From the NCBI GenBank assembly GCA_903910445.1, contig CAIVZR010000068.1, forward strand, positions 1-42,487: a stretch of DNA of 42,487 nucleotides, written 5' to 3'. The DNA is from an uncultured Bacteroidota bacterium. Its GTDB lineage: Bacteria > Bacteroidota > Bacteroidia > UKL13-3. The notes beneath the pieces were generated by a model. That model searched no databases and had not been told where the DNA came from. It worked only from the letters and a program-made list of their open reading frames with translations. Shown in pieces: positions 19,363 to 31,392 of this stretch. The position numbers and the translations under genes were made by a program. Every line of letters begins with the position of its first letter. Positions within the stretch are counted from its first letter, which is position 1.

Positions 19363-22300
19363 ATGAATTCATTTTTATTCAATCGCTTTTTCGCGCTTTG
19401 TAGTTTGCTGTTAATGACAGCACAACTCAATGCACAGAATACTGCAGCAATTAAGGGAAGAATGCTTGATGAGAAAAGCGAGCCACTCTCTTTTGCCACT
19501 ATTCGACTCGAAGGAACAACCATTGCACAAAACACAGATGCTGATGGGAATTTCTTATTTAAAAATTTGGCTGCTGGTAATTACGTAGTTATCGGCACCT
19601 ATTTAGGTTATGTTCCTTCTCGACAGGAAGTTAAGCTTGCTGTAGGGGAAACCAAAGAAATAAGAATCCAAATGCAGCCCGAAAACAAGAGCCTCAACGA
19701 GGTGGTTGTTGTAGGTTATGGAACACAAGTAAGAAAGGAAGTTACTGGAGCTGTTTCAAAAATAAGCAGTAAGGAAATTACTTCTATCCCGGTACCGAGT
19801 GTGGAAGCCGCCTTGCAAGGAAAAGCTGCAGGGGTTCAAATATCTATTGGTAGTGGATTGGCAGGAGCTGCGTCGGTTGTGAAAATTAGAGGTATTGCTT
19901 CGGTAAGTGCAGGTAGCGATCCTTTATATGTTGTTGATGGTATTCCTATTTCACAAGATTATTTCATTCAAAATGCAACCGATAAAGGGAATGGAGGAGG
20001 AAAGAATAATAACCCGCTGGCAACTTTAAATCCAGATGATATCGAATCCATTGAAATTTTAAAGGATGCTGCCGCAACAGCCATCTATGGTTCACGTGGT
20101 TCAAACGGGGTCATCATCATCACCACTAAACGTGCGAAGAAACAAGGATTGAAATTCGACCTCACCATTCGTGAAGGAATTTCAACAATGGCTTCTCGCC
20201 CACAGATGATGAATAATACACAGTATTTGCAGATGCTTCAAGAAGCCTATGAAAATGATGGGGGTGTAGGGCGTGCACCATTGCCAGCTGGTTTAACTTG
20301 GGAGCAAGCGCAATCAACCAATACCGATTGGGTAAAACAAACCACCCATGCTGGCTTCAAACAAACTTATAGCTTAGGAACATCTTATGCTAAGAAAAAA
20401 ATAAACTTATACGTAAATGCCACCCATGATAATAATTCAACGTATATTATTGGTGATGCTTATGTAAGAAGTGCATTTAGAGCCAATCTAGAATATCAGT
20501 TGACAAGTAAAATGAAACTTTCATACGCCGGTTCGTATGTGAATGGTTTGAATAAGCGTGTAGATGGTGGATGGGGCGGAGGCCTTGGAGCTGCGATGAG
20601 CACAGCACTTCCTATCTATCCAGTAAAAAACAGTGATGGTTCTTGGTTTACCAGTGGTGGTGTAAATAATAACCCAGTATTTATGCGTGAAAACAAAACG
20701 CAGCAAACCCGCCAGCAACGTACACTTCAAGGGGTGGTAATGGAATACTCTCCAATAAAAAATTTACTTATCCGCGTAAATGGAAATTATGACTACCTTG
20801 ATAATACTGATGATGTATATGAAGATACCGCTTTGGTAAAACAACCTAAGGGAATAGCAAAACGTGGTGCAACCTATACCAACAACTATAATATAGTTGC
20901 CACAGCATTTTATTCTCAAACCTTAAAGAAAGAACAAAAGATTTCATACTTAGCAGGTACCGAATATCAAAGAACCCGTTCGGCTTTCAAATATTTAGAA
21001 TACAATAATATTATGGGGCCATTGTATAATACTACCCCTATTGATTCTAATTTAAAACCTGGTACTAATCTATTGAGCAAAAGTATTTCTGTATTCGATA
21101 GTTATTTTGGACGTGTAAGCTATTCATTGAAAGATAAATATTTTATCTCGTTGAATGGTCGTGCCGATTATTCATCCACCTTTGGTGAAAATTATCGATG
21201 GGGTTTCTTTCCAGCCATTGGAACAGGATGGGTAGTGAGCGATGAGAAATTTTTGAAAGGAAATAAAGTTCTTACCTTCTTAAAGGCAAGAGCAAGTTAT
21301 GGTAAGACTGGTAATTCAAATTTCGGAGGATCCTACCCATGGTGGGGACGTTATAAAGTAAATCCTACCGTTTATAATGGCGTTGCTTCTCGCTATGTTG
21401 AGATATTCGAAAACCCTGATTTCCATTGGGAAACAACCAAAACTTTTGATATTGGATTCGACTTCTCTTTATTTTCGGAAAGAATAACAGGGGTATTAGA
21501 ATATTATAATAAGAATACCAGTGACGTAATTTTAAGTGTAAGTGTTCCTAATTACTATGGTTTCCAATCGGGGAATTATGCTGCCAATGTTGGAAAAATA
21601 AATAACCAAGGAATTGAATTCTCTACAAAGCTACGTGTTATTGACAAGGACAAAATCCGTTATACCATCGACTTTAATATTGCTAGAAACAAAAATAAAG
21701 TCTTGGATATTGGGTCGTATACAGAAGAAGCCGTGAGTGGAGGTACCAATGATACACGTATTGTAGAAGGTCAGCCAGTAGGGACCAATTATTTAGTTCG
21801 TTTTTCAAGAATTGATCAAAATACTGGGAAGCCAATTTATTTTGATAAGAACGGAAATGAGACTTATAAATGGGACCCAGCCAATAGGGTACCTGTTGGA
21901 AATATTTATCCTAAAGCTTTTGGGGGATGGAGCAATACCTTCATTTACAAACGTTGGGAAGTGGATATGAATTTCATTTACAGTATCGGAGGAAAAATTT
22001 ATGACTCTTCATCTAAACGCCAGATGGGAACTTTTGATTCCGACAATTGGAATCACCGCTTGGATCAATTTGATCGTTGGCAAAAACCAGGTGATCAAAG
22101 TGAGTATCCTGTGCTTACTCGTCAGCCAGCCACTTATGGATCATCTACCCCATGGATCAATACGGATATGTGGTTGAAAGATGCATCTTATATGCGTTTG
22201 AGAAATCTTAGTTTGTTTTATTCATTCAATTCTGATCAGTTAAAGAAAGCTAAATTATCAAGTGCTCGCATTGGTTTAGTTTCTACCAACTTAATATTGT

Positions 22301-22440
22301 TTACTAAATTCAGAGGATTAGATCCAGAGGTGGTGCGTGACTTTGAAAATGCTACGGATAGAAATACCAGTCCGAACATTACTTATTTAACCCCTCCTCA
22401 AGAAAGAACAAACAGCATCTCCATCGTAATCGGATTTTAA
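19363..22440 (+). CDS. susC: SusC/RagA-family TonB-linked outer-membrane transporter
   Basis: The outer-membrane barrel of a SusCD importer, which takes up oligosaccharides using TonB energy. The 1025-residue chain begins with a signal peptide ending LNAQ (about residue 25). A carboxypeptidase-D regulatory-like domain follows (about 28-113), then the NEVVVVGYGTQ segment typical of the family, and a plug with VVDGIPI and IEILKDAAATAIYGSRG. The remaining 750 residues form the barrel, closing with a terminal aromatic, NSISIVIGF. It is followed 13 bases later by susD. The two products normally form a pedal-bin pair. The downstream starch-type genes suggest alpha-glucan import, but the substrate is inferred from context only. 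Confidence 0.95.
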   Translation: MNSFLFNRFFALCSLLLMTAQLNAQNTAAIKGRMLDEKSEPLSFATIRLEGTTIAQNTDADGNFLFKNLAAGNYVVIGTYLGYVPSRQEVKLAVGETKEIRIQMQPENKSLNEVVVVGYGTQVRKEVTGAVSKISSKEITSIPVPSVEAALQGKAAGVQISIGSGLAGAASVVKIRGIASVSAGSDPLYVVDGIPISQDYFIQNATDKGNGGGKNNNPLATLNPDDIESIEILKDAAATAIYGSRGSNGVIIITTKRAKKQGLKFDLTIREGISTMASRPQMMNNTQYLQMLQEAYENDGGVGRAPLPAGLTWEQAQSTNTDWVKQTTHAGFKQTYSLGTSYAKKKINLYVNATHDNNSTYIIGDAYVRSAFRANLEYQLTSKMKLSYAGSYVNGLNKRVDGGWGGGLGAAMSTALPIYPVKNSDGSWFTSGGVNNNPVFMRENKTQQTRQQRTLQGVVMEYSPIKNLLIRVNGNYDYLDNTDDVYEDTALVKQPKGIAKRGATYTNNYNIVATAFYSQTLKKEQKISYLAGTEYQRTRSAFKYLEYNNIMGPLYNTTPIDSNLKPGTNLLSKSISVFDSYFGRVSYSLKDKYFISLNGRADYSSTFGENYRWGFFPAIGTGWVVSDEKFLKGNKVLTFLKARASYGKTGNSNFGGSYPWWGRYKVNPTVYNGVASRYVEIFENPDFHWETTKTFDIGFDFSLFSERITGVLEYYNKNTSDVILSVSVPNYYGFQSGNYAANVGKINNQGIEFSTKLRVIDKDKIRYTIDFNIARNKNKVLDIGSYTEEAVSGGTNDTRIVEGQPVGTNYLVRFSRIDQNTGKPIYFDKNGNETYKWDPANRVPVGNIYPKAFGGWSNTFIYKRWEVDMNFIYSIGGKIYDSSSKRQMGTFDSDNWNHRLDQFDRWQKPGDQSEYPVLTRQPATYGSSTPWINTDMWLKDASYMRLRNLSLFYSFNSDQLKKAKLSSARIGLVSTNLILFTKFRGLDPEVVRDFENATDRNTSPNITYLTPPQERTNSISIVIGF

Positions 22441-22453
22441 TTAACCAACAGAA

Positions 22454-23839
22454 ATGAAACGTATCACAATATATATATTTAGTGCCTTTTTACTCGTTGC
22501 TTCATTAAGCGCATGTAAAAAGATGTTTGATGTTAACCCTAACGACCCTACTCAAATTCGTAAAGCCGACGCACTCACCAAACCTTCGGATGTACAAGAA
22601 GTTTTGAATGCTGGGTACGATAATATTGCCAATTTATATAATGGCAGAGTACAATACTTCGGCGAATTGCTTTCGGATAATGTAATTGCCCCAAAATCGA
22701 ATAATGATTTTACAGAAGTATATAATAGAGCAACCATCTTCTTTAATACCTCAACCGGTGGATTTTATGGAGATATGTACAAGATTATTTACAAGGCGAA
22801 TACGGTACTTGACTTTATTGATGGGGTACCTGGATTTACCGATTCGGAGAAGCAAAGAATGATTGCAGAAGCGAAGTTCATGCGTGCCTTAGGGCATTTC
22901 ACAGCTGTTCGTTTTTTCGCTCAACCCTATGGTTATACTTCCGACAACTCACATTTAGGCGTGCCATTGCGTAAGAATTCATTACCAGAAGTAACATTAA
23001 GAAGCACGGTAAAGGAATCTTATGATTTCATTATTAAAGATTTGACAGAAGCCATTGCTAACTTACCAGAAACCAACCTGAATAATACCAATGCGACTAA
23101 GTATGCAGCAAAGGCATTATTGGCCAAGGTTTATTTCCAAATGAATGATTTTGGTAATGTAATTACACAGGTAAATGATATTGTTGCATCTGCTAAGTTT
23201 TCCCTTTCAGATAGTGTGAATCTATATAACAAATCGGCCGTTGCTCAAAAAGAAATGATTTTCTATATAAAATCAACCAGTGCTGACCAACGTTCGGGTG
23301 CGATGCGTGGAAATTATTTTGAGACAGGAGCTAACCAGCCACAAATTGGGGTATCGGCTTCCTTATATGCTGATGCTACTGCCCGTGGAGGAGATAAGCG
23401 TACAGCTTATTATGCTCCATGCACAGGAGGTTTCAGATCATTGAAATTTGATTCAAACTTCTTCAATGTTCCGGTTTTATACTTAACCGATTTGTTATTG
23501 ATGAGAGCTGAAGCGATTGCAGAAACCAATGGAACATTATCAGTAGCGATTACTGATATAAACGCCATTATCACGCGTGCATTTGGAGGCATTGGACAAA
23601 ATATTTCAACTACCAGTGGTGCCGAAACAATAAAGATTGCGGCACGAACAGAACGTCGTTTAGAAATGCCTATGGAAGGCGATCGCGTACAACAATTGAA
23701 ACGCCTTGGAGCTAAGGGCGAACCGAATATTCGAATTCGCAATGCACCATGGAATTGCAATGGCTTGGTACTTCAATTCCCTGCTTCAGAAAGCACTATT
23801 AAAGGATTTCAAATGAACCCTGAAGGAGGTTGTAACTAA
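22454..23839 (+). CDS. susD: SusD/RagB-family glycan-binding lipoprotein
   Basis: The surface lipoprotein that lids the SusC barrel and captures glycan. The signal peptide ends in the lipobox LSAC with C21 acylated, and a KK pair follows. The N-terminal SusD-like region contains YDNIANLYNGRVQYFGELLSDN, and the helical TPR-like part has FMRALGHFTAVRFFAQPYG, the most conserved SusD stretch. The C-terminal RagB region has RTERRLEMPMEGDRVQQLKRLG, which corresponds to the usual ExRxE/GxRxxDLxR-type block. At 461 residues it is slightly shorter than many relatives. It is cotranscribed with susC (13-base gap) and with the lipoprotein 14 bases downstream. Confidence 0.95.
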   Translation: MKRITIYIFSAFLLVASLSACKKMFDVNPNDPTQIRKADALTKPSDVQEVLNAGYDNIANLYNGRVQYFGELLSDNVIAPKSNNDFTEVYNRATIFFNTSTGGFYGDMYKIIYKANTVLDFIDGVPGFTDSEKQRMIAEAKFMRALGHFTAVRFFAQPYGYTSDNSHLGVPLRKNSLPEVTLRSTVKESYDFIIKDLTEAIANLPETNLNNTNATKYAAKALLAKVYFQMNDFGNVITQVNDIVASAKFSLSDSVNLYNKSAVAQKEMIFYIKSTSADQRSGAMRGNYFETGANQPQIGVSASLYADATARGGDKRTAYYAPCTGGFRSLKFDSNFFNVPVLYLTDLLLMRAEAIAETNGTLSVAITDINAIITRAFGGIGQNISTTSGAETIKIAARTERRLEMPMEGDRVQQLKRLGAKGEPNIRIRNAPWNCNGLVLQFPASESTIKGFQMNPEGGCN

Positions 23840-23853
23840 TTAAAAAATTAATC

Positions 23854-24351
23854 ATGAAACGTATATTTAAATTCACCGCTTTAATTCTGGCAACAACCAT
23901 TATTGTTGTTTCCTGCCGCCCGAAAAAGTTTTCGGATATCGGCGATGTGTCGAGTAAAACCAAGGGTATTCAGGACAACTGGATTTTATCCCATGCTTAT
24001 GTTGTGGATGAGGCCTTTGCCACTCCCGATAAATTGGATATCACCGATTTCTACAAGACAAAAACCTTGCCTACCTTAAAATTTACCGAAACAGGCTTTA
24101 CGGCGCTTACTACCGGAACTGTAAAAAACTATTTTGGAACAGGTACCGGAACTTGGAGTTTCGACAATACTGATTTCCCTAAATCGCTTTATATAAACTA
24201 TTCAGATAATTCGAAGGACACTTTCTTATTAGGAAGTACCATTAGAACAACGGACTTAGTTCTAAAACTCAAGAAAACCTTTTATTATACCAAAGGGACC
24301 GCGAAAAAAATCGCCTATTCTTATATCTGGGAATTTACAAGACAAAATTAA
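23854..24351 (+). CDS. PUL-associated lipoprotein (DUF5004-like)
   Basis: A 165-residue lipoprotein with the lipobox VVSC (C21). The mature part begins with a polar spacer and then IQDNWILSHAYVVDE, followed by TLKFTETGFTAL and GTGTWSFDN, a lipocalin-like beta pattern resembling the DUF5004 lipoproteins found beside SusD genes; that family assignment is from memory. The C-terminus reads YSYIWEFTRQN. Position three in the operon suggests a surface glycan-binding or complex-stabilising role, in the place where SusE would sit in the Bacteroides thetaiotaomicron locus. Confidence 0.65.
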   Translation: MKRIFKFTALILATTIIVVSCRPKKFSDIGDVSSKTKGIQDNWILSHAYVVDEAFATPDKLDITDFYKTKTLPTLKFTETGFTALTTGTVKNYFGTGTGTWSFDNTDFPKSLYINYSDNSKDTFLLGSTIRTTDLVLKLKKTFYYTKGTAKKIAYSYIWEFTRQN

Positions 24352-24375
24352 TTAATCTTCAAGAAAGTATCTAAG

Positions 24376-25236
24376 ATGAAAAAGTTTATAATACTCGTTA
24401 CAATTATAATTGCTGCATTTATAAAATCAAATGCACAAGCGGCCTGGATTGAACCAGGACCTACTACTGATGTTACATCGGTATGCAGAATTTATGTTGA
24501 TTTGTCAAAAATCACCAATACTTCTTTAGATGGATTAACTGGTCCATTTTATATGTGGACTTGGAATCCAAGAGAGTTGCCAGCCAATGACCCCAATGTT
24601 AATGGCACAGGAACCCAGCCATGGAAAAATTCAAACGACAATTTGAAATTAACTCCCGACCCATCAAAAGGGCCTAAGGTTTATTACTATGAAATGATCC
24701 CAACCGATTTTTACGGAGTAAATAAGGGAGATGTTTATAGCAAAGGAATCTCTTTACTGGTAAAACCTAAAGATGGTGGAGGTTATGGAGCTCCCGATTT
24801 AAAATCGGAAGATTTAAATATCAAGGTGAATGCTCCTATTGAGCGTGATACCATCTATACCCTTCCTAAATGTGCATATACCGATGAAATTTTAACCATT
24901 ATGTATAACAACCCTGTAGAACGCAATACAGGCATGTCGAATTTAGGTGCAGAGGATTGCTACTTATACATCAAAGTGACTTTAAGTGATGCCACAACTG
25001 TTGAGAAGGCGAGTTTCTTTGATGTAGGTACTGTACCTGCTTTAAAGATGACAAAAATTACTGAAGGATTATTTTCGGGACAGTTTAAATTAACCATGAT
25101 TCCTAGGGAGTTTTTAGCCATTCCGAATGGTAAAACAATCGTCTCTGCTCAGTTCATTGTGCGGAGGAAAGATTTCAATGGGGGCCCCGATCGGAGTGCA
25201 GGAAATAATGACCTAAAATATTTTGAATGCAAATAA
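24376..25236 (+). CDS. Exported PUL protein of unknown function
   Basis: A 286-residue exported protein. A signal peptide ends near SNAQA (about residue 21), and there is no lipobox. The mature sequence opens AAWIEPGPTTDVTSVCRIYVD and contains FYMWTWNPRELP, aromatic-rich segments that could contact sugar, and a second half with DEILTIMYNNPVERNTG and QFIVRRKDFNGGPDRS. It seems to hold two beta-sandwich-like halves. It may belong to the DUF4961 type of proteins that occur with SusCD and amylases, but this is not certain. Its place between the lipoprotein and the four-module binding protein, with a 24-base gap upstream, ties it to the same glucan system. Confidence 0.55.
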   Translation: MKKFIILVTIIIAAFIKSNAQAAWIEPGPTTDVTSVCRIYVDLSKITNTSLDGLTGPFYMWTWNPRELPANDPNVNGTGTQPWKNSNDNLKLTPDPSKGPKVYYYEMIPTDFYGVNKGDVYSKGISLLVKPKDGGGYGAPDLKSEDLNIKVNAPIERDTIYTLPKCAYTDEILTIMYNNPVERNTGMSNLGAEDCYLYIKVTLSDATTVEKASFFDVGTVPALKMTKITEGLFSGQFKLTMIPREFLAIPNGKTIVSAQFIVRRKDFNGGPDRSAGNNDLKYFECK

Positions 25237-25252
25237 AAATTTATTATATTTA
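25222..25252 (+). promoter_or_regulatory. Internal promoter before the glucan-binding protein gene
   Basis: TTTG (25222-25225), a 19-base spacer, and TATATTTA (25245-25252) with one mismatch at the last base. It lies 39 bases before the ATG at 25292. It could allow extra expression of the binding protein apart from the susC promoter. Confidence 0.5.
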
Positions 25253-25291: not shown

Positions 25292-26989
25292 ATGAAACGT
25301 ATTCTACTTTTATTAAGTGCAATTGTTTTGCTAAATGTAGCTAAAGCAACCACAGTTTTATTCGCAGTTGATATGACCGGTCAAACGGTTAGCGCTAACG
25401 GAATGCACGTTGCAGGTGATTTTCAAGGATGGAATCCATCCGCTACCGCAATGGCTAATATCCCTTCTACTCAGGTTTACTATTATTCATTTTCAACCAC
25501 TACCCCTGGAAAAATTGAATACAAATTTATAAATGGTAACGATTGGAGCGCACCAGGTGGTACTCCAGAGAATGTTCCTACCAGTGCTCAAGTAGGTGGA
25601 GGAAATTCAAACCGTTGGTACAATGTAGATACTACAATGTCTAAAGACACCGTTTTGGTTTCTTGGCAAGGAGTTTCATCATCTGCATTTGCACCTTTTG
25701 GATATAACAAACAATACATTCGTTTGGCTGTAAATATGGCTAAAGCAACTACCATTGATCCCGCTGGCGTATTAGTAGCTGGAGCTTTCAACGGATGGAG
25801 CGATAAAACTAAGATGTTAAACTTAAATACTGCTGGTAAAGTATACGAAGCACAAATGTGGTTATCAGCTGGTACTTACGAATACAAATTTAAGAATGGC
25901 CCATCAGGATGGGAAAGTGTACCGGGAACTTGTGCTCCATCAGGAGGTAACCGTGCAATCACTGTGGCTGCTGCTTCTCAAGTTATATCTCCAGTATGTT
26001 TGAGCGAATGTGGTAACTGTATCTTGAACTTGCCTAAGTACGATGTTACTTTCATGACTGATATCTCTGAAGATGTTGCTTGTGGACAAATTGACTCAGT
26101 AGATGTAACCGGAGGTCATGCATTATTAGGAAACTGGGGTAATCCAGGACAAAAAATGGCAAAAGTAGGAGCAACCAATGTTTATACTTTAAAAATCAAT
26201 CAATTTGATAGCGGGACTGCTATTGATTACAAATATCGCGTTTGGTCGAAAGGAAATGTTAGCTGGGAACAAGTTGGATGGACTTCTAACGGTAACCGTG
26301 CTTTAGTAATTACTTCAACACAAACTTTAGCAACCAATTGCTTCGGTAAAAACACAACTTGTACTGCGCCTCCAGCTTCTTCTAAAGTTACTTTCAAAGT
26401 TGACTTCGCAGGAACTTCTATCACTCCAGGTGCTAAAGTTTACTTGGTAGGAAAAGGAAATAACTCTTGGTTAAAAGGAGCTACCGGTGGTAAAATTGAA
26501 ATGACTGCTGTTTCAGGTACAGGTGGTAAAGCATACCAAGTATCAATCGATTCAATTTGCCCAGGAACAATCTATTACGGATTTGCTAATGATGCAACTG
26601 ACGAAACTTACGATACTGCTGCTGCTGGCAGAACTTGTTTAGCTCCATCAGGAGTTGGATACCAACGTGTTTACCAACGCCCTGCTACTGCTTCTACAGT
26701 TTATTATGTATTTGGAAAATGTAACAAAGGTATCTCTGCTATCAGCTATGCTGGTAAAAACGAAGATTTCCGTTTGTATCCAAATCCAATGACTAACTCA
26801 TCAACTGTTGAATTAGGAACTGGAAACTATACTATCAATGTAATTGATATCACTGGTAAAATTGTTCGCACTTATACAAATGTTAGTGGTAAAGTTACCA
26901 TCAGCAAAGGCGATTTACCAACTGGTATTTATATCGTTGATGTTACAGGTGAAAACACCCGTACTACTGAAAAATTAAGCATCAGATAA
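25292..26989 (+). CDS. T9SS-secreted protein with four starch-binding-like modules
   Basis: A 565-residue secreted protein. After a signal peptide ending near AKAT come four related beta modules of about 105-130 residues. Each is marked by a line like the core of CBM20/CBM48 or AMPK-glycogen-binding domains: HVAGDFQGWNP (about 39-49), VLVAGAFNGWSD (about 160), HALLGNWGNPG (about 276) and VYLVGKGNNSW (about 382), followed in modules 1-3 by KYR/EYKFKNG-type strands. Cysteines cluster at the joints (CLSECGNC). A type A T9SS domain starts at YPNPMTNS (about 495) and ends TEKLSIR. No catalytic residues were seen. It probably holds starch or maltodextrin at the cell surface, replacing SusE/SusF. 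The gene has its own likely promoter and a strong terminator. Confidence 0.8.
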   Translation: MKRILLLLSAIVLLNVAKATTVLFAVDMTGQTVSANGMHVAGDFQGWNPSATAMANIPSTQVYYYSFSTTTPGKIEYKFINGNDWSAPGGTPENVPTSAQVGGGNSNRWYNVDTTMSKDTVLVSWQGVSSSAFAPFGYNKQYIRLAVNMAKATTIDPAGVLVAGAFNGWSDKTKMLNLNTAGKVYEAQMWLSAGTYEYKFKNGPSGWESVPGTCAPSGGNRAITVAAASQVISPVCLSECGNCILNLPKYDVTFMTDISEDVACGQIDSVDVTGGHALLGNWGNPGQKMAKVGATNVYTLKINQFDSGTAIDYKYRVWSKGNVSWEQVGWTSNGNRALVITSTQTLATNCFGKNTTCTAPPASSKVTFKVDFAGTSITPGAKVYLVGKGNNSWLKGATGGKIEMTAVSGTGGKAYQVSIDSICPGTIYYGFANDATDETYDTAAAGRTCLAPSGVGYQRVYQRPATASTVYYVFGKCNKGISAISYAGKNEDFRLYPNPMTNSSTVELGTGNYTINVIDITGKIVRTYTNVSGKVTISKGDLPTGIYIVDVTGENTRTTEKLSIR

Positions 26990-27002: not shown

Positions 27003-27041
27003 AAAAAAAGTCTTCCTGTAATACAGGAAGACTTTTTTTTT
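27003..27041 (+). terminator. Strong rho-independent terminator ending the susCD operon
   Basis: AGTCTTCCTG pairs with CAGGAAGACT around a 5-base loop (27009-27033), flanked by an A-run and by nine T. It separates the SusCD-binding protein transcript from the amylase gene. Confidence 0.9.
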
Positions 27042-27108: not shown

Positions 27109-28653
27109 ATGAGAATCATTCCTTTATACTTAGCTTTATTAATTTATACTTTAAGCATGTCGCAAGCCGCTAATCACTCCACCGTTAGTGGTGTTGAGTG
27201 GAAATCGAAATTCCCTCACCAAGTGGTATATCAAATATTCAGCCGCTCTTTTGCCGATGGTAATGGAGATGGGATTGGCGACCTACAAGGAGTGAAAAAC
27301 AAATTGCCTTATTTGAAAGAGCTCGGTATTGGAGCAATTTGGCTCACTCCAATTTTTGAATCACCTACCTATCATAAATACGATATCATAAATTATTATC
27401 AAATTGATCCAGAGTGTGGTACCAAAGAAGATTTAAAGCAATTGGTTAATGAAGCCCATATCATGGGAATAAAAATCATTCTTGACTTTGTGCCTAATCA
27501 TACCAGCACGCAGCATGAATGGTTTAAGGAGGCGGTTAAAAACAATCCTACTTACAAAAATTATTATAGCTGGAGCAGCGATACCTCAGTATGGCATAAG
27601 GAGCCTGAACACTGGCATTGGGTCGACGATCAGACCAAAGGGAATGAAAAGTATTACGGATATTTTTGGAGAGGCATGCCCGACCTTAATTACGATAATC
27701 CGAAGGTAAGAGAAGAAATAATTAAGGCAGCACAATTCTGGATTTCTGAATGTGATATAGATGGCTATCGATTGGATGCTGCCAGCCATGTTTATCCGTA
27801 TGCCGATCGCAAAAAAAACTATGCTTGGTGGACTGAATTTTCAAATGCCATGCGGGTACAAAAACCCGATTTTTATATTGTTGGAGAAATGTGGGGTGGC
27901 GACACCTTGATTGCACCTTACTTGAAAGCAGGGATGGATGCAGGGTTCAACTTTGATTTGTGGTTTAATATAAAATCTTCAATAGCAAAATCGAACGATG
28001 ATGTAACAACAAAACTATTAGCTACCTATAATCGATACTATAATAATCGCGCAACATTTTGTGATGCTACCTTACTCTCCAACCATGATAATCCAAGAAT
28101 TATGGATGAGGTGCAAGGCGATACTGACAAAGCAAAACTTGCGGCGGCAATCCTATTTACTTTACCCTATACACCGTATGTATATTACGGAGATGAGTTG
28201 GGTATGTTTGGACCAAAACCCGATGAACATATTCGTGAACCCTTTTTATGGGACGCTACTGATGAAGCTAAATGCAACTGGGAACCGAACTTTCATAATG
28301 CAGAAACCCCTACCCTATCTAGTCAAAAAAGCAATCAAAGTTCGATGTATAATACCTATCAATCATTGATAAAATTCAGAAACCAAGATGAAGTATTAAG
28401 TGATGGAAATTACGAATGCACGAGTTTACATAAGGATGGATTGATGATTTATGTGCGTTCAAAAAATGCAAAAAACTATTTGATTGTACATAATTTACAG
28501 GATTCTAGTACGCAACTCAAACTAAACGAATTGCCTCATTCAAGAGAATTCAAAATCGTGTATAGTACCGGAGGAAGAATCTTACAACCTGCCGATATGC
28601 TTGAACTCAAACCATACTCTAGTGTGGTTATTAGCTTTGTGAAATTACCGTAA
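27109..28653 (+). CDS. Exported GH13 alpha-amylase
   Basis: A glycoside hydrolase family 13 enzyme that cleaves alpha-1,4-glucan by a retaining mechanism. The signal peptide ends around SMSQA (about residue 20). The (beta/alpha)8 barrel carries all four conserved regions: DFVPNH (126-131), DGYRLDAASH with nucleophile D223, GEMWGG with acid/base E260, and NHDNPR with N325 and D327. ADGNGDGIGDLQG (from residue 50) is the calcium-type loop common in alpha-amylases and oligo-1,6- or alpha-glucosidase relatives. A C-terminal beta domain ends the 514-residue chain. There is no T9SS domain or lipobox, so it should be periplasmic. Exact specificity (amylase, neopullulanase or alpha-glucosidase) cannot be read from these motifs. 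Confidence 0.92.
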   Translation: MRIIPLYLALLIYTLSMSQAANHSTVSGVEWKSKFPHQVVYQIFSRSFADGNGDGIGDLQGVKNKLPYLKELGIGAIWLTPIFESPTYHKYDIINYYQIDPECGTKEDLKQLVNEAHIMGIKIILDFVPNHTSTQHEWFKEAVKNNPTYKNYYSWSSDTSVWHKEPEHWHWVDDQTKGNEKYYGYFWRGMPDLNYDNPKVREEIIKAAQFWISECDIDGYRLDAASHVYPYADRKKNYAWWTEFSNAMRVQKPDFYIVGEMWGGDTLIAPYLKAGMDAGFNFDLWFNIKSSIAKSNDDVTTKLLATYNRYYNNRATFCDATLLSNHDNPRIMDEVQGDTDKAKLAAAILFTLPYTPYVYYGDELGMFGPKPDEHIREPFLWDATDEAKCNWEPNFHNAETPTLSSQKSNQSSMYNTYQSLIKFRNQDEVLSDGNYECTSLHKDGLMIYVRSKNAKNYLIVHNLQDSSTQLKLNELPHSREFKIVYSTGGRILQPADMLELKPYSSVVISFVKLP

Positions 28654-28718: not shown

Positions 28719-29384
28719 ATGAAAAGAATTTCTATAATGCTATGCTTAATAATTCTCACTTTAGGATTAAAAGCAGGTGTGATTTTAGGTTATCAGGCAG
28801 GCTGCTATACCCGCGGCATTGCCAATATCCAAAGCACCACCTATTACTATAACAAAGTATTTGATGCTAATTTCAAATACCGAAATATGTTTCATGGAAT
28901 ATATTTGGGTTATCGTTTTGATATGGATAATGGTTGGTTTAGTTTGGCCTGGCATAATAAGCACAATTCCTATTCCTCCGAATATATCGATAAGGGCGTT
29001 ACAAAACAGTTCGGAATTAAACATCGCATGAATGATTTGGTTTTTGATGTGGGTTATCGTGGTAAGAAATTTGGAATCGGCGGAGGATTCGATATGGCCA
29101 ATTATAATGTATTCACCAAGCGAGGTACACCATCAGAATATAAGAGTGCCAAATGGGGATTTAATGATTATGGAAGACCCATTAAATTAATGGGCTTGCC
29201 TACATTCCCAAGCTTTTCATTAGAAGGCGAGTGTTATTTAGGCAAAGTAGCGATACTAAGAGCCACGTATCAATTTGGCATAGGCGAACTAACATTTGCG
29301 AATGATGGATCATTGATGTTCTGGGATTTTTATGGGAACAATTTAACTTTTTCTCTATTGTTTAATTTTTCTTCAAACAAATAA
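28719..29384 (+). CDS. Putative outer-membrane beta-barrel protein
   Basis: A 221-residue protein with a signal peptide ending near LGLKA (about residue 19). The mature part has many short amphipathic strands rich in Tyr, Phe, Gly and Asn, such as MFHGIYLGYRFDMDNGWFSLAW and FGIGGGFDMANYNVF, and ends with LTFSLLFNFSSNK. This fits a small outer-membrane barrel, but no family is recognised. It is first in a compact three-gene run (gaps of 4 and 5 bases) behind a near-perfect promoter, directly after the amylase. Confidence 0.6.
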   Translation: MKRISIMLCLIILTLGLKAGVILGYQAGCYTRGIANIQSTTYYYNKVFDANFKYRNMFHGIYLGYRFDMDNGWFSLAWHNKHNSYSSEYIDKGVTKQFGIKHRMNDLVFDVGYRGKKFGIGGGFDMANYNVFTKRGTPSEYKSAKWGFNDYGRPIKLMGLPTFPSFSLEGECYLGKVAILRATYQFGIGELTFANDGSLMFWDFYGNNLTFSLLFNFSSNK

Positions 29385-29388
29385 TCCT

Positions 29389-30141
29389 ATGAAAAAAACA
29401 ATCTTAAGTATATTCTTTATAGCTACCGCGCTCATAACTGCAAGGGCTCAATTCTCCTTATTTGCAACTGTGAATGCCAAAGCAGGAATTTTACAAGGCA
29501 CTTCATTCAAACGATTTGCCGATTCCTATAATCTTACCAATCCAGATAATGAAACCAAATTAAAAAACTTCGGTTTGGCTTATGGATACTCTATCACAGG
29601 CGATTTATTTTTCGATGATGCATCGATTTATATGGGTTATTACCAACATCGATTGATGGCGAATACCGAATCGAAAATCAATAACTATTATTCACGTGTA
29701 TTTCACATGATACAGAAAAGTTATGGAGGTGATTTTGGGTTTGGTAAATCGGAAGATGGAAAAGCATTTGCGATCTTTATGGGAATTTATTTTGGCACAA
29801 CCAATTTAAAATCGGGACTCACCTATAGAGATGGGTATACGAGTTATGGTTCGGATGCAATTCTCAACGGCATCTTTCACTCCTTTGCTTTCTCTGGATC
29901 CTTGGGTGCTAAATATATTGCCTGTGCTGGCCCTGTCGGTATTTCGGCAGCTATTCGGTGGAGCCCGCTTTTTGGTGCAAGTGAGTATTATGATTTTGGA
30001 AGAGATGCCAATCAGATTGGGGAAGACTGGAAGACTTATTCTTCTGTTCCTTCTTACAATTATTCGGGCAAATATCTTACCTCCGCTGCACAATCGTTCA
30101 CTATTGATTTAGGACTTGCAATTCATATTAATAAAGACTAA
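29389..30141 (+). CDS. Putative outer-membrane or periplasmic protein
   Basis: A 250-residue exported protein with a signal peptide ending ITARAQ (about residue 21). It is again rich in aromatics and glycine with alternating strands, including LKNFGLAYGYSITGDLFFDD, DFGFGKSEDGKAFAIFMGIYFG and SFTIDLGLAIHINKD at the end. It resembles the preceding gene in general character, but no aligned identity was seen. No family is recognised. It starts 4 bases after its upstream neighbour, so translation is probably coupled. Confidence 0.55.
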   Translation: MKKTILSIFFIATALITARAQFSLFATVNAKAGILQGTSFKRFADSYNLTNPDNETKLKNFGLAYGYSITGDLFFDDASIYMGYYQHRLMANTESKINNYYSRVFHMIQKSYGGDFGFGKSEDGKAFAIFMGIYFGTTNLKSGLTYRDGYTSYGSDAILNGIFHSFAFSGSLGAKYIACAGPVGISAAIRWSPLFGASEYYDFGRDANQIGEDWKTYSSVPSYNYSGKYLTSAAQSFTIDLGLAIHINKD

Positions 30142-30146
30142 TCGCC

Positions 30147-30572
30147 ATGAAAAATATCATTATCATTATCTCTATAACCTTCATACTCTACTCCTGCAAG
30201 AAGCGCAGTAATGTATACAGTTTTGCAGGCGTATGGGAAATTACAAAAGTAGAACAAGTAAGTTTTGCTCAGGATAAACAAACTCTTGATAGCACCTTGG
30301 TGAATGATACCTTAGGATGGTTTGCTTTTCAAAATTCCGTAGGCCCAAGTGGTCAAGGGAAAATTCAAATCAATTTTACTTCTTTGTCGGGATTAGCTAC
30401 CGACTATGCAACCTTTTGGGAATTGAGTGAACATGAAAGTGACCGAATTCAAATCAATAAGAAATTTTACACCAGAGAGAAAATTGTTGGTGGAGAGAAA
30501 TGGACCTGGATTTCTTCAGGCAATGTGGGAGGTATTTATAATCGCGAAACAATTTTCGTGAAGCATAAATAG
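30147..30572 (+). CDS. Small lipoprotein
   Basis: A 141-residue lipoprotein. The signal peptide ends in ILYSC with C17 acylated and KKR following. The mature part contains FAGVWEITKVEQVSF, the opening of a lipocalin-like fold, and ends WISSGNVGGIYNRETIFVKHK. It is the third gene of the cassette that starts at 28719 and begins 5 bases after the previous stop. One lipoprotein with two envelope barrels suggests an outer-membrane assembly, but the function is unknown. Confidence 0.65.
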   Translation: MKNIIIIISITFILYSCKKRSNVYSFAGVWEITKVEQVSFAQDKQTLDSTLVNDTLGWFAFQNSVGPSGQGKIQINFTSLSGLATDYATFWELSEHESDRIQINKKFYTREKIVGGEKWTWISSGNVGGIYNRETIFVKHK

Positions 30573-30735: not shown

Positions 30736-31392
30736 TTATTTGCCCTCCGCAGCATCAATCAAATTGAAATTGATTAATGCAGTAGATCTCAATACGATAT
30801 TTGCCTTGCCTAAAATTTTCGCATCCCCGATACCAATGGCGTAAAACCCGCCACGGATGGCTGCTTCAACCCCTGCCTCTGCATCTTCAAACACAATGGC
30901 CTCATTTGGATTCACGTTTAATTCTTCTGCGGCTCTTAAAAATACTTGAGGATTGGGTTTTGCTTCGGTAATTTTATTTCCATCAACGATGGCATCGAAA
31001 TAAGACGTGAGTTTTAATTTATCCAGGATGAGTAAGGCATTTTTACTGGCACTTCCCAATCCGATTAAAATATTTTTTAATTTCAATTCATCTAAGAATT
31101 CTTTAATTCCAGGAAGTATTTCCGATTCATCAATGGTTGAACAATATTCGAGATACCAGATATTCTTCTTCACGGCCATCTCTTGTTTCTCTTCTTCGCT
31201 GTATTGTATGGATCCTTTACGTAAAATTATTTCCAGGGAGGTAGTGCGACTCACGCCTTTGAGTTGTTCGTTATCGTGCTCATCGAAAGAGATATTTAAT
31301 TCATCAGCCAATCGTTTCCAAGCTAAGAAATGAAACTTTGCGGTATCTACAATTACCCCATCCAGATCAAAAATACATGCCTTGATTTTCAT
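30736..31392 (-). CDS. pgmB: Beta-phosphoglucomutase
   Basis: A HAD-superfamily enzyme that converts beta-glucose-1-phosphate to glucose-6-phosphate. The 218 residues match family length. FDLDGVIVDTAKFHFLAWK carries the phosphorylated D9, the acid/base D11 and the cap-domain helix with histidine. QLKGVSRTTSLE is the cap loop typical of beta-PGM, GSASKNA holds the motif II serine, EAKPNPQVF the motif III lysine, and VFEDAEAGVEAA the metal-binding acidic pair. Beta-glucose-1-phosphate normally comes from maltose or trehalose phosphorylase; none is in the window. Its closeness to the SusCD-amylase locus suggests a role in maltodextrin use. A TATTTTTG element (31397-31404) lies almost at the start codon. 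Confidence 0.92.
   Translation of the reverse strand: MKIKACIFDLDGVIVDTAKFHFLAWKRLADELNISFDEHDNEQLKGVSRTTSLEIILRKGSIQYSEEEKQEMAVKKNIWYLEYCSTIDESEILPGIKEFLDELKLKNILIGLGSASKNALLILDKLKLTSYFDAIVDGNKITEAKPNPQVFLRAAEELNVNPNEAIVFEDAEAGVEAAIRGGFYAIGIGDAKILGKANIVLRSTALINFNLIDAAEGK

Follow-up and report, generated by a model that had tools for sequence, protein, structure and literature searches.

The starch system (Sus) of Bacteroides is the phylum's model of glycan uptake, and its external parts are lipoproteins. The window analysed here, a stretch of 42,487 nucleotides (contig CAIVZR010000068.1), holds a SusC/SusD (SusCD) locus with a gene for a four-module protein that resembles SusE and SusF of B. 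thetaiotaomicron (family PF16411) in being non-catalytic, in carrying several tandem starch-type modules and in belonging to a SusCD alpha-glucan locus. Unlike SusE and SusF, it lacks a lipoprotein signal, carries a sorting domain of the type IX secretion system (T9SS), is composed of CBM48/CBM20-type modules and is not encoded directly after susD.

Other described systems share parts of this arrangement. To our knowledge, neither the T9SS nor SusCD has any part in the amylosome of Ruminococcus bromii or its protein Sas20. Sas20 is reported as an abundant starch-binding surface protein with multiple domains, as such comparable to the four-module protein, but it is part of that amylosome and has different domains (PMC9112005). 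CHU_1279 of Cytophaga hutchinsonii is likewise described as non-catalytic, with tandem CBM-like domains and a PUL-like cluster, but it binds cellulose, its cluster has no SusD homologue and it is not known to us to carry a T9SS sorting domain (PMC12016534). The fungal cell wall locus of C. pinensis combines SusCD with T9SS-exported, CBM-bearing proteins, although the CBMs reported there are fused to enzymes and directed at beta-glucan and chitin (PMC10449523). FjChiA, from the chitin utilization locus of F. johnsoniae, is also T9SS-exported and belongs to a SusCD locus, yet is described as a chitinase, whereas the four-module protein shows no catalytic domain and bears alpha-glucan-type modules (PMC5127042). 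The meeting of T9SS and SusCD in one locus, to which the initial annotation had drawn attention, is therefore present here but not new, since T9SS enzymes in SusCD loci are on record (PMC5127042, PMC10449523). F. johnsoniae is also reported to have a T9SS amylase, AmyB, and type A sorting domains are described as compatible with anchoring or release (PMC12618676). Among the literature matches listed, with few subscription papers included, we found no report of a SusCD locus encoding a T9SS protein that is non-catalytic and has alpha-glucan modules, which is weak evidence of absence. What is new in this locus is a predicted non-catalytic, probably highly produced T9SS binder of alpha-glucan type that is kept with SusCD.

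Architecture and Export Signal of the Four-Module Protein

The 565-aa protein runs from a signal peptide through four beta-sandwich modules (M1 to M4) to a type A T9SS sorting domain (Table 1). The initial annotation had recognized this sorting domain, and both Pfam (PF18962, 42.8 bits, cut-off 27) and NCBIfam (TIGR04183, 41.1 bits, cut-off 23) bore it out, as did the predicted fold of residues 491–565, which resembles the solved T9SS sorting domains 8qb1, 8glk and 8gl6 with Z-scores of 9.3–9.8 and rmsd values of 1.9–2.3 over 72–73 residues. PF18962 was matched in all 18 aligned members of the four-module family. The Pfam and NCBIfam scan detected no catalytic domain in the protein, as had been claimed. 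The host genome codes for SprA (SprA_N 533 bits, in an open frame of 2015 aa) and exceeds the sorting-domain cut-off at at least 150 places (150 of 177 candidates scored). Because T9SS cargo is this common in the host, the sorting domain alone is unremarkable; what is noteworthy is the kind of cargo and its gene neighbours. At ten alignment columns, 14 or more of the 18 sequences have Cys, a pattern that suits disulfides outside the cytoplasm.

The AlphaFold2 model, built from 18 aligned sequences, is of moderate quality (mean pLDDT 73.4, pTM 0.39), and fold Z-scores were computed for chains ranked by Foldseek. The top Foldseek rows (S-layer and immunoglobulin-type chains, TM about 0.1) were discarded as an effect of tandem beta-sandwiches, which call up generic Ig-type chains. 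Structure prediction, proposed with the initial annotation as a check, matched M2, M3 and the sorting domain to known folds.

Four Modules and a Putative Glucan Site

Pfam matches were obtained to CBM48 in M1 (residues 35–83; 23.3 bits, cut-off 22.4), a marginal result with no stretch above the cut-off by itself, to AMPK1_CBM in M2 (residues 160–200; 37.2 bits, cut-off 26.8) and to CBM20 in M3 (residues 261–346; 29.8 bits in the whole protein and 31.5 as a single module, cut-off 23.3). The predicted fold of M2 resembles the SNF1 beta glycogen-binding domain (Z 9.2, rmsd 2.4, 81 residues), and that of M3 the CBM20 of STBD1 (Z 13.3, rmsd 2.3, 96 residues) as well as those of glucoamylase and CGTase; for M1, no fold match stands among the best 50 fold-comparison rows listed. 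M4 had no Pfam match as a single module and, taken by itself, only chance matches to solved structures. Only three of the orthologous M4s (of 17) match any family at E ≤ 0.01, namely AMPK1_CBM. Four CBM20/48-like modules had been proposed; the assignment is upheld for M1–M3, and M4 is divergent.

The main glucan site of AMPK-beta and of CBM20 is made up of two Trp, a Lys and an Asn. In profile alignments, the Trp and Lys site positions of the modules coincide with those of AMPK-beta and of the CBM20s of glucoamylase and CGTase. Eleven site positions were counted over 17 sequences, four of them from the window's genus: the W, K, W and N of M1 and of M2 are identical in all 17, as are K314 and W325 of M3, while N335 is retained in 16. 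The remaining position of M3, W282, is occupied by W in 16 and by F in 2 of 18 sequences as read from the alignment. Over the modules, 13 of the 17 aligned sequences share just 38–45% identity with the window protein. In M4 of the window, Gly takes the place of the site Lys and the second Trp is absent; judged by these residues, the canonical site of M4 appears to be lost in the window's genus.

The profile search proposed with the initial annotation extended to the SusE/F families, and here the window protein gave no match to PF16411 at E ≤ 1. Among aligned members, 4 of 18 match PF16411 at E ≤ 0.01; three scores were recorded (25.5, 21.4 and 20.1), all below the cut-off of 27.5. The M2 profile weakly matches SusF (4fe9, E 0.029), as does the four-module protein of genome G118 SusF_N (22.8 bits, cut-off 28). 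These weak matches suggest that the modules are distant kin of SusE/SusF. Membership of that family was rejected on the missing lipid anchor, the missing PF16411 match in the window protein and the wrong gene place.

Gene Order and the Position behind susD

Table 1. Features of the four-module protein and of its locus (positions in the window)
Feature	Positions	Strand	Evidence or remark
SusC/RagA-family TonB-dependent transporter	19363..22440	+	TIGR04056 721.7 bits, cut-off 368.25
SusD-like lipoprotein, Cys in signal peptide	22454..23839	+	SusD-like_3 98.8 bits, cut-off 27
Small lipoprotein, 165 aa, weakly DUF5004-like (below cut-off), first after susD	23854..24351	+	
DUF4961-like protein, 286 aa, signal peptide without lipobox	24376..25236	+	24.9 bits, cut-off 27.1
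Relaxed promoter-like site, TTTG-N19-TATATTTA	25222..25252	+	Similar site in three sister genomes
Four-module alpha-glucan-type T9SS cargo, 565 aa	25292..26989	+	ORF, coordinates and frame confirmed
Signal peptide, residues 1–19, without lipobox Cys	25292..25348 (M1 starts at 25349)	+	Cleavage site inferred by eye
M1, residues 20–128, CBM48/X25-like, putative site W47 K78 W85 N107	25349..25675	+	Pfam, alignment
M2, residues 138–246, AMPK-type CBM48-like, putative site W169 K199 W207 N220	25703..26029	+	Pfam, fold, alignment
M3, residues 247–362, CBM20, putative site W282 K314 W325 N335	26030..26377	+	Pfam, fold, alignment
M4, residues 363–478, divergent, without family match, canonical site lost	26378..26725	+	Alignment, Pfam
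Type A T9SS C-terminal sorting domain, residues 495–564	26774..26983	+	Pfam, NCBIfam, predicted fold
Long hairpin with A- and T-tracts, terminator-like, between four-module gene and amylase	27003..27041	.	MFE -21.8 kcal/mol, z -5.7
GH13 alpha-amylase with SusG_C domain	27109..28653	+	GH13 322.7 bits
Two signal-peptide proteins (221 and 250 aa) without clear family, and a 141-aa lipoprotein	28719..30572	+	Kept in genus
Beta-phosphoglucomutase, convergent	30736..31392	-	TIGR01990, 252 bits

The initial annotation placed the four-module protein in the position corresponding to SusE and SusF. This did not hold: two conserved genes at 23854–25236, which that annotation omitted, separate the four-module gene from susD in the window, and in each of the 30 loci with the gene outside the window's genus it is transcribed divergently from the susC-susD operon. 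The SusE/F position is taken by the small lipoprotein and the DUF4961-like protein, which follow susD in this order in the window and in the family loci alike.

The model of the DUF4961-like protein (mean pLDDT 79.5) relates its residues 18–156 to residues 45–167 of the Sus amylase BoGH13A_Sus from B. ovatus, with Z-scores of 10.0–10.2 (next entry 5.3) and rmsd values of 2.9–3.0 over 112–113 residues; Foldseek also ranks BoGH13A_Sus first, at E 0.002 only. Going by domain order, this N-terminal region of BoGH13A_Sus would be its CBM98. Among the frames searched, the N-domain profile gave no convincing match beyond the protein's own family; the best other match was to four-module proteins (E 0.055). 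The C-terminal part falls below the PF16328 cut-off in the window, with PF16328 matched at E ≤ 0.1 in 13 of 15 aligned members. In three of eight scanned T9SS amylases (L047, L048, L049), PF16328 exceeds its cut-off in the N-terminal part, over the same model region as is matched by the C-terminal part of the DUF4961-like protein, and this shared region points to a further tie between the two proteins.

Conservation with SusCD and Alpha-Glucan Enzymes

The comparison set comprised 58 genomes, with 35 in family f1. Within the family, full-length relatives from other genera share 36–42% identity with the window protein over the whole length and 38–45% over the modules. In a first set of 20 loci, 19 hold SusC and/or SusD genes of the system together with the four-module gene, which lies on the same strand as susCD in three (the window's genus) and divergently from it in the remaining 16. 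The twentieth locus, L055, is a short contig that lacks SusCD and has a 1051-aa frame starting with the same modules. A second set of 51 loci was picked by alignment to the DUF4961 marker, not by the four-module protein, and many of its genomes overlap with the first. The four-module gene is present in 33 of these, 30 times divergent and three times (again the window's genus) on the same strand. Sixteen of the 18 loci without it end before its place and two, both from Saprospiraceae (L140, L142), lack the gene.

Across family f1, the DUF4961 marker was found in 21 of 35 genomes, and the four-module protein in 20 of the 21 with the marker and in none of the 14 without it (Fisher p 6.5e-9, a value that ignores kinship). 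For this count, two-module relatives (about 230–247 model positions, ending before position 250) were set aside, G030 (split copy) and G025 (truncated copy) were scored as carrying the protein, and G032, a 70% complete genome that has the marker and no four-module match, was taken as absent. Marker and protein are also missing together within genera, from G004 in g1 and from G005 and G027 in g2. In a second family, genome G118 (L179) carries the full divergent set, in which the four-module protein and the amylase both have sorting domains, and in other families the protein is found near GH13-type genes (G316, G094, G255). Together with SusC and SusD upstream and GH13 downstream in the window, the count in f1 supports the proposed membership of the SusCD locus: the four-module protein belongs to the alpha-glucan SusCD system and travels with that importer across the family.

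The GH13 amylase of the window is probably periplasmic, as its signal peptide contains no Cys and it shows no T9SS domain. A homologue of the T9SS GH13 is found in 22 of the 51 marker loci. Seventeen of these homologues, one of them a 250-aa remnant, have the four-module gene beyond them, and in the remaining five loci the contig ends inside the GH13 gene. All eight scanned T9SS GH13 proteins exceed the cut-offs for both amylase and sorting domain. Of the 51 loci, eight contain GH97 and four GH31; Pfam confirmed one reference per family (345 and 404 bits, respectively). In the window's own genome, a T9SS GH13 of 944 aa, whose sorting domain scores 48.4 bits, is encoded on a different contig (G000:C14 = L089). 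This amylase stands outside a SusCD locus (L089:5044-10619) and is divergent to a GH13 with CBM48 and an alpha-amylase C-terminal domain, which we take to be a branching enzyme.

Expression Level

Seven stretches of the genome supplied 72 open frames of 200 aa or more, which were ranked by codon adaptation against a reference of six genes, one of them found by search, that we assume to encode ribosomal proteins. The four-module gene ranks first (0.789). Three ribosomal frames among the 72 reach 0.746–0.782 and one shorter ribosomal gene 0.79; SusC (0.639) and SusD (0.633) rank 17 and 18. Across 32 loci, which are related and include near-identical genomes, Nc of the gene is lower than that of SusC in 30, with one tie and one higher value (mean difference 5.4). 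High production is likely given the first rank in codon adaptation and the stronger codon bias than SusC in 30 of 32 loci.

The internal promoter suggested at 25222–25252 is plausible only. A relaxed form of the motif, based on what we presume to be the Bacteroidota promoter consensus, is present there and in three sister genomes (spacer 18–19), but the strict form (TAnnTTTG) has no match at these positions, the TTTG falls in the last codons of the preceding gene and the relaxed motif occurs eight times on both strands of the window. A sigma-70 scan was uninformative, with 41 sites found and 45.2 expected. The hairpin at 27003–27041, which could act on both strands, was judged by folding; the sigma-70 scan did not report it, a miss probably due to pairing between its A-tract and T-tract. 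Codon bias, an indirect measure, the relaxed promoter-like site and the strong hairpin favour, rather than prove, the earlier suggestion that the four-module protein may be made in excess over SusCD.

Proposed Role and Alternatives

The four-module protein is a real and conserved part of a system for alpha-glucan uptake and is probably made at a high level. Based on its architecture, sorting domain, predicted folds, site residues, co-occurrence with SusCD and codon bias, from which we infer binding, location and cooperation, we consider it likely to be a non-catalytic, multivalent capture protein for alpha-glucan (starch or glycogen) in a Sus-like uptake system, exported by the T9SS. Large amounts of the protein would be made and carried over the inner membrane by Sec, and the type A sorting domain would direct its passage of the outer membrane by the T9SS, after which it would be held at the surface or released. 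M1–M3 would hold glucan chains through the W/K/W/N platform, with M4 acting as a spacer or binding through a different site. Polymer would in this way be gathered near SusCD for the T9SS-exported amylase, whose gene lies beside SusCD in other genera and elsewhere in the window's genome. SusCD would then take in the products and the periplasmic GH13 would complete their breakdown. The role would be like that of SusE/SusF, with a different export route.

Whether the protein stays with the cell divides this reading into two. There is a nearly even prospect that it is a surface scaffold, anchored after T9SS export as part of a complex in the outer membrane that also includes SusC, SusD and the two proteins encoded after susD. 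Co-occurrence and gene linkage with SusCD agree with such a complex, SusE with SusF is reported as the centre of Sus complex assembly (PMC8211771) and type A domains are described as able to give static anchoring (PMC12618676); yet the protein has no lipid anchor, contact with SusCD is purely putative and outside the genus the genes are transcribed divergently. The chance that the sorting domain instead frees the protein to the medium, where it would coat or cross-link glucan particles and bring them to cells or to the T9SS amylase, falls somewhat short of even. The type A domain of F. johnsoniae AmyB is reported to release its cargo to the medium and that of RemA both to anchor and to release (PMC12618676). 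The very strong codon bias also fits a product that is lost from the cell, but competitors would share the benefit of a released binder, and linkage to SusCD is equally expected of a surface partner.

An adhesive rather than nutritional function, in which the protein binds the cell's own glycogen-like or capsular alpha-glucan or the matrix of lake biofilms, seems improbable to us. AMPK-type modules bind glycogen in eukaryotic relatives, and a two-module T9SS relative sits beside an ASST-like T9SS protein rather than SusCD (L067), both of which speak for adhesion; against it, 20 of the 21 genomes with the alpha-glucan SusCD locus also have the four-module protein, and in other families GH13-type genes lie near it. 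That the modules are degenerate, serving as spacer or structural cargo without glucan binding, is very improbable: M4 has lost its canonical site in the window's genus, and some CBM48s, such as that of BoGH13A_Sus, are reported not to bind, so that a CBM48 fold need not mean binding (PMC11633381), but M1–M3 retain W/K/W/N despite the 38–45% identity of 13 of the 17 sequences.

If the capture role proposed here is true, a SusCD import core can be served by a different export route, with binder and amylase both passing through the T9SS. Anchored scaffold versus released bait becomes a testable question for surface glycan-binding proteins, and lake ecologists gain a marker for alpha-glucan use by uncultured Bacteroidota. 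More tentatively, and with doubts that outweigh our confidence, the T9SS may have taken over the outside half of starch use in this freshwater lineage. Two T9SS cargo proteins, an amylase and a very abundant capture protein made up of CBMs alone, would replace the SusE, SusF and SusG lipoproteins, and the DUF4961-like protein with its predicted CBM98-like N-domain would take up the position after SusD. An excess of the capture protein may also be released, to act on glucan particles as multivalent bait or as cross-linker.

Variants of the Locus and of the Module Set

Several genomes depart from the arrangement in the window. In one sister genome, the three genes that follow the amylase (221, 250 and 141 aa) are duplicated in tandem (L040:2588-6440), and in one sister genome a 325-aa lipoprotein-like gene lies between the four-module gene and the amylase (L041:10952-11929). 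A complete genome of UKL13-3 (L133, CP012155.1) has a reduced locus in which no SusC was seen, SusD is a 193-aa remnant and the first part of the four-module protein is missing. The two-module form is present in several families of the class; the T9SS relative of this kind at L067:7425-10126 (about 340 aa) adjoins a T9SS protein with an ASST (arylsulfotransferase) match. The module set also occurs in bigger proteins, since two frames, of 1051 aa (L055:1-3153, cut at the contig end) and 979 aa (L059:8170-11109), begin with the same modules.
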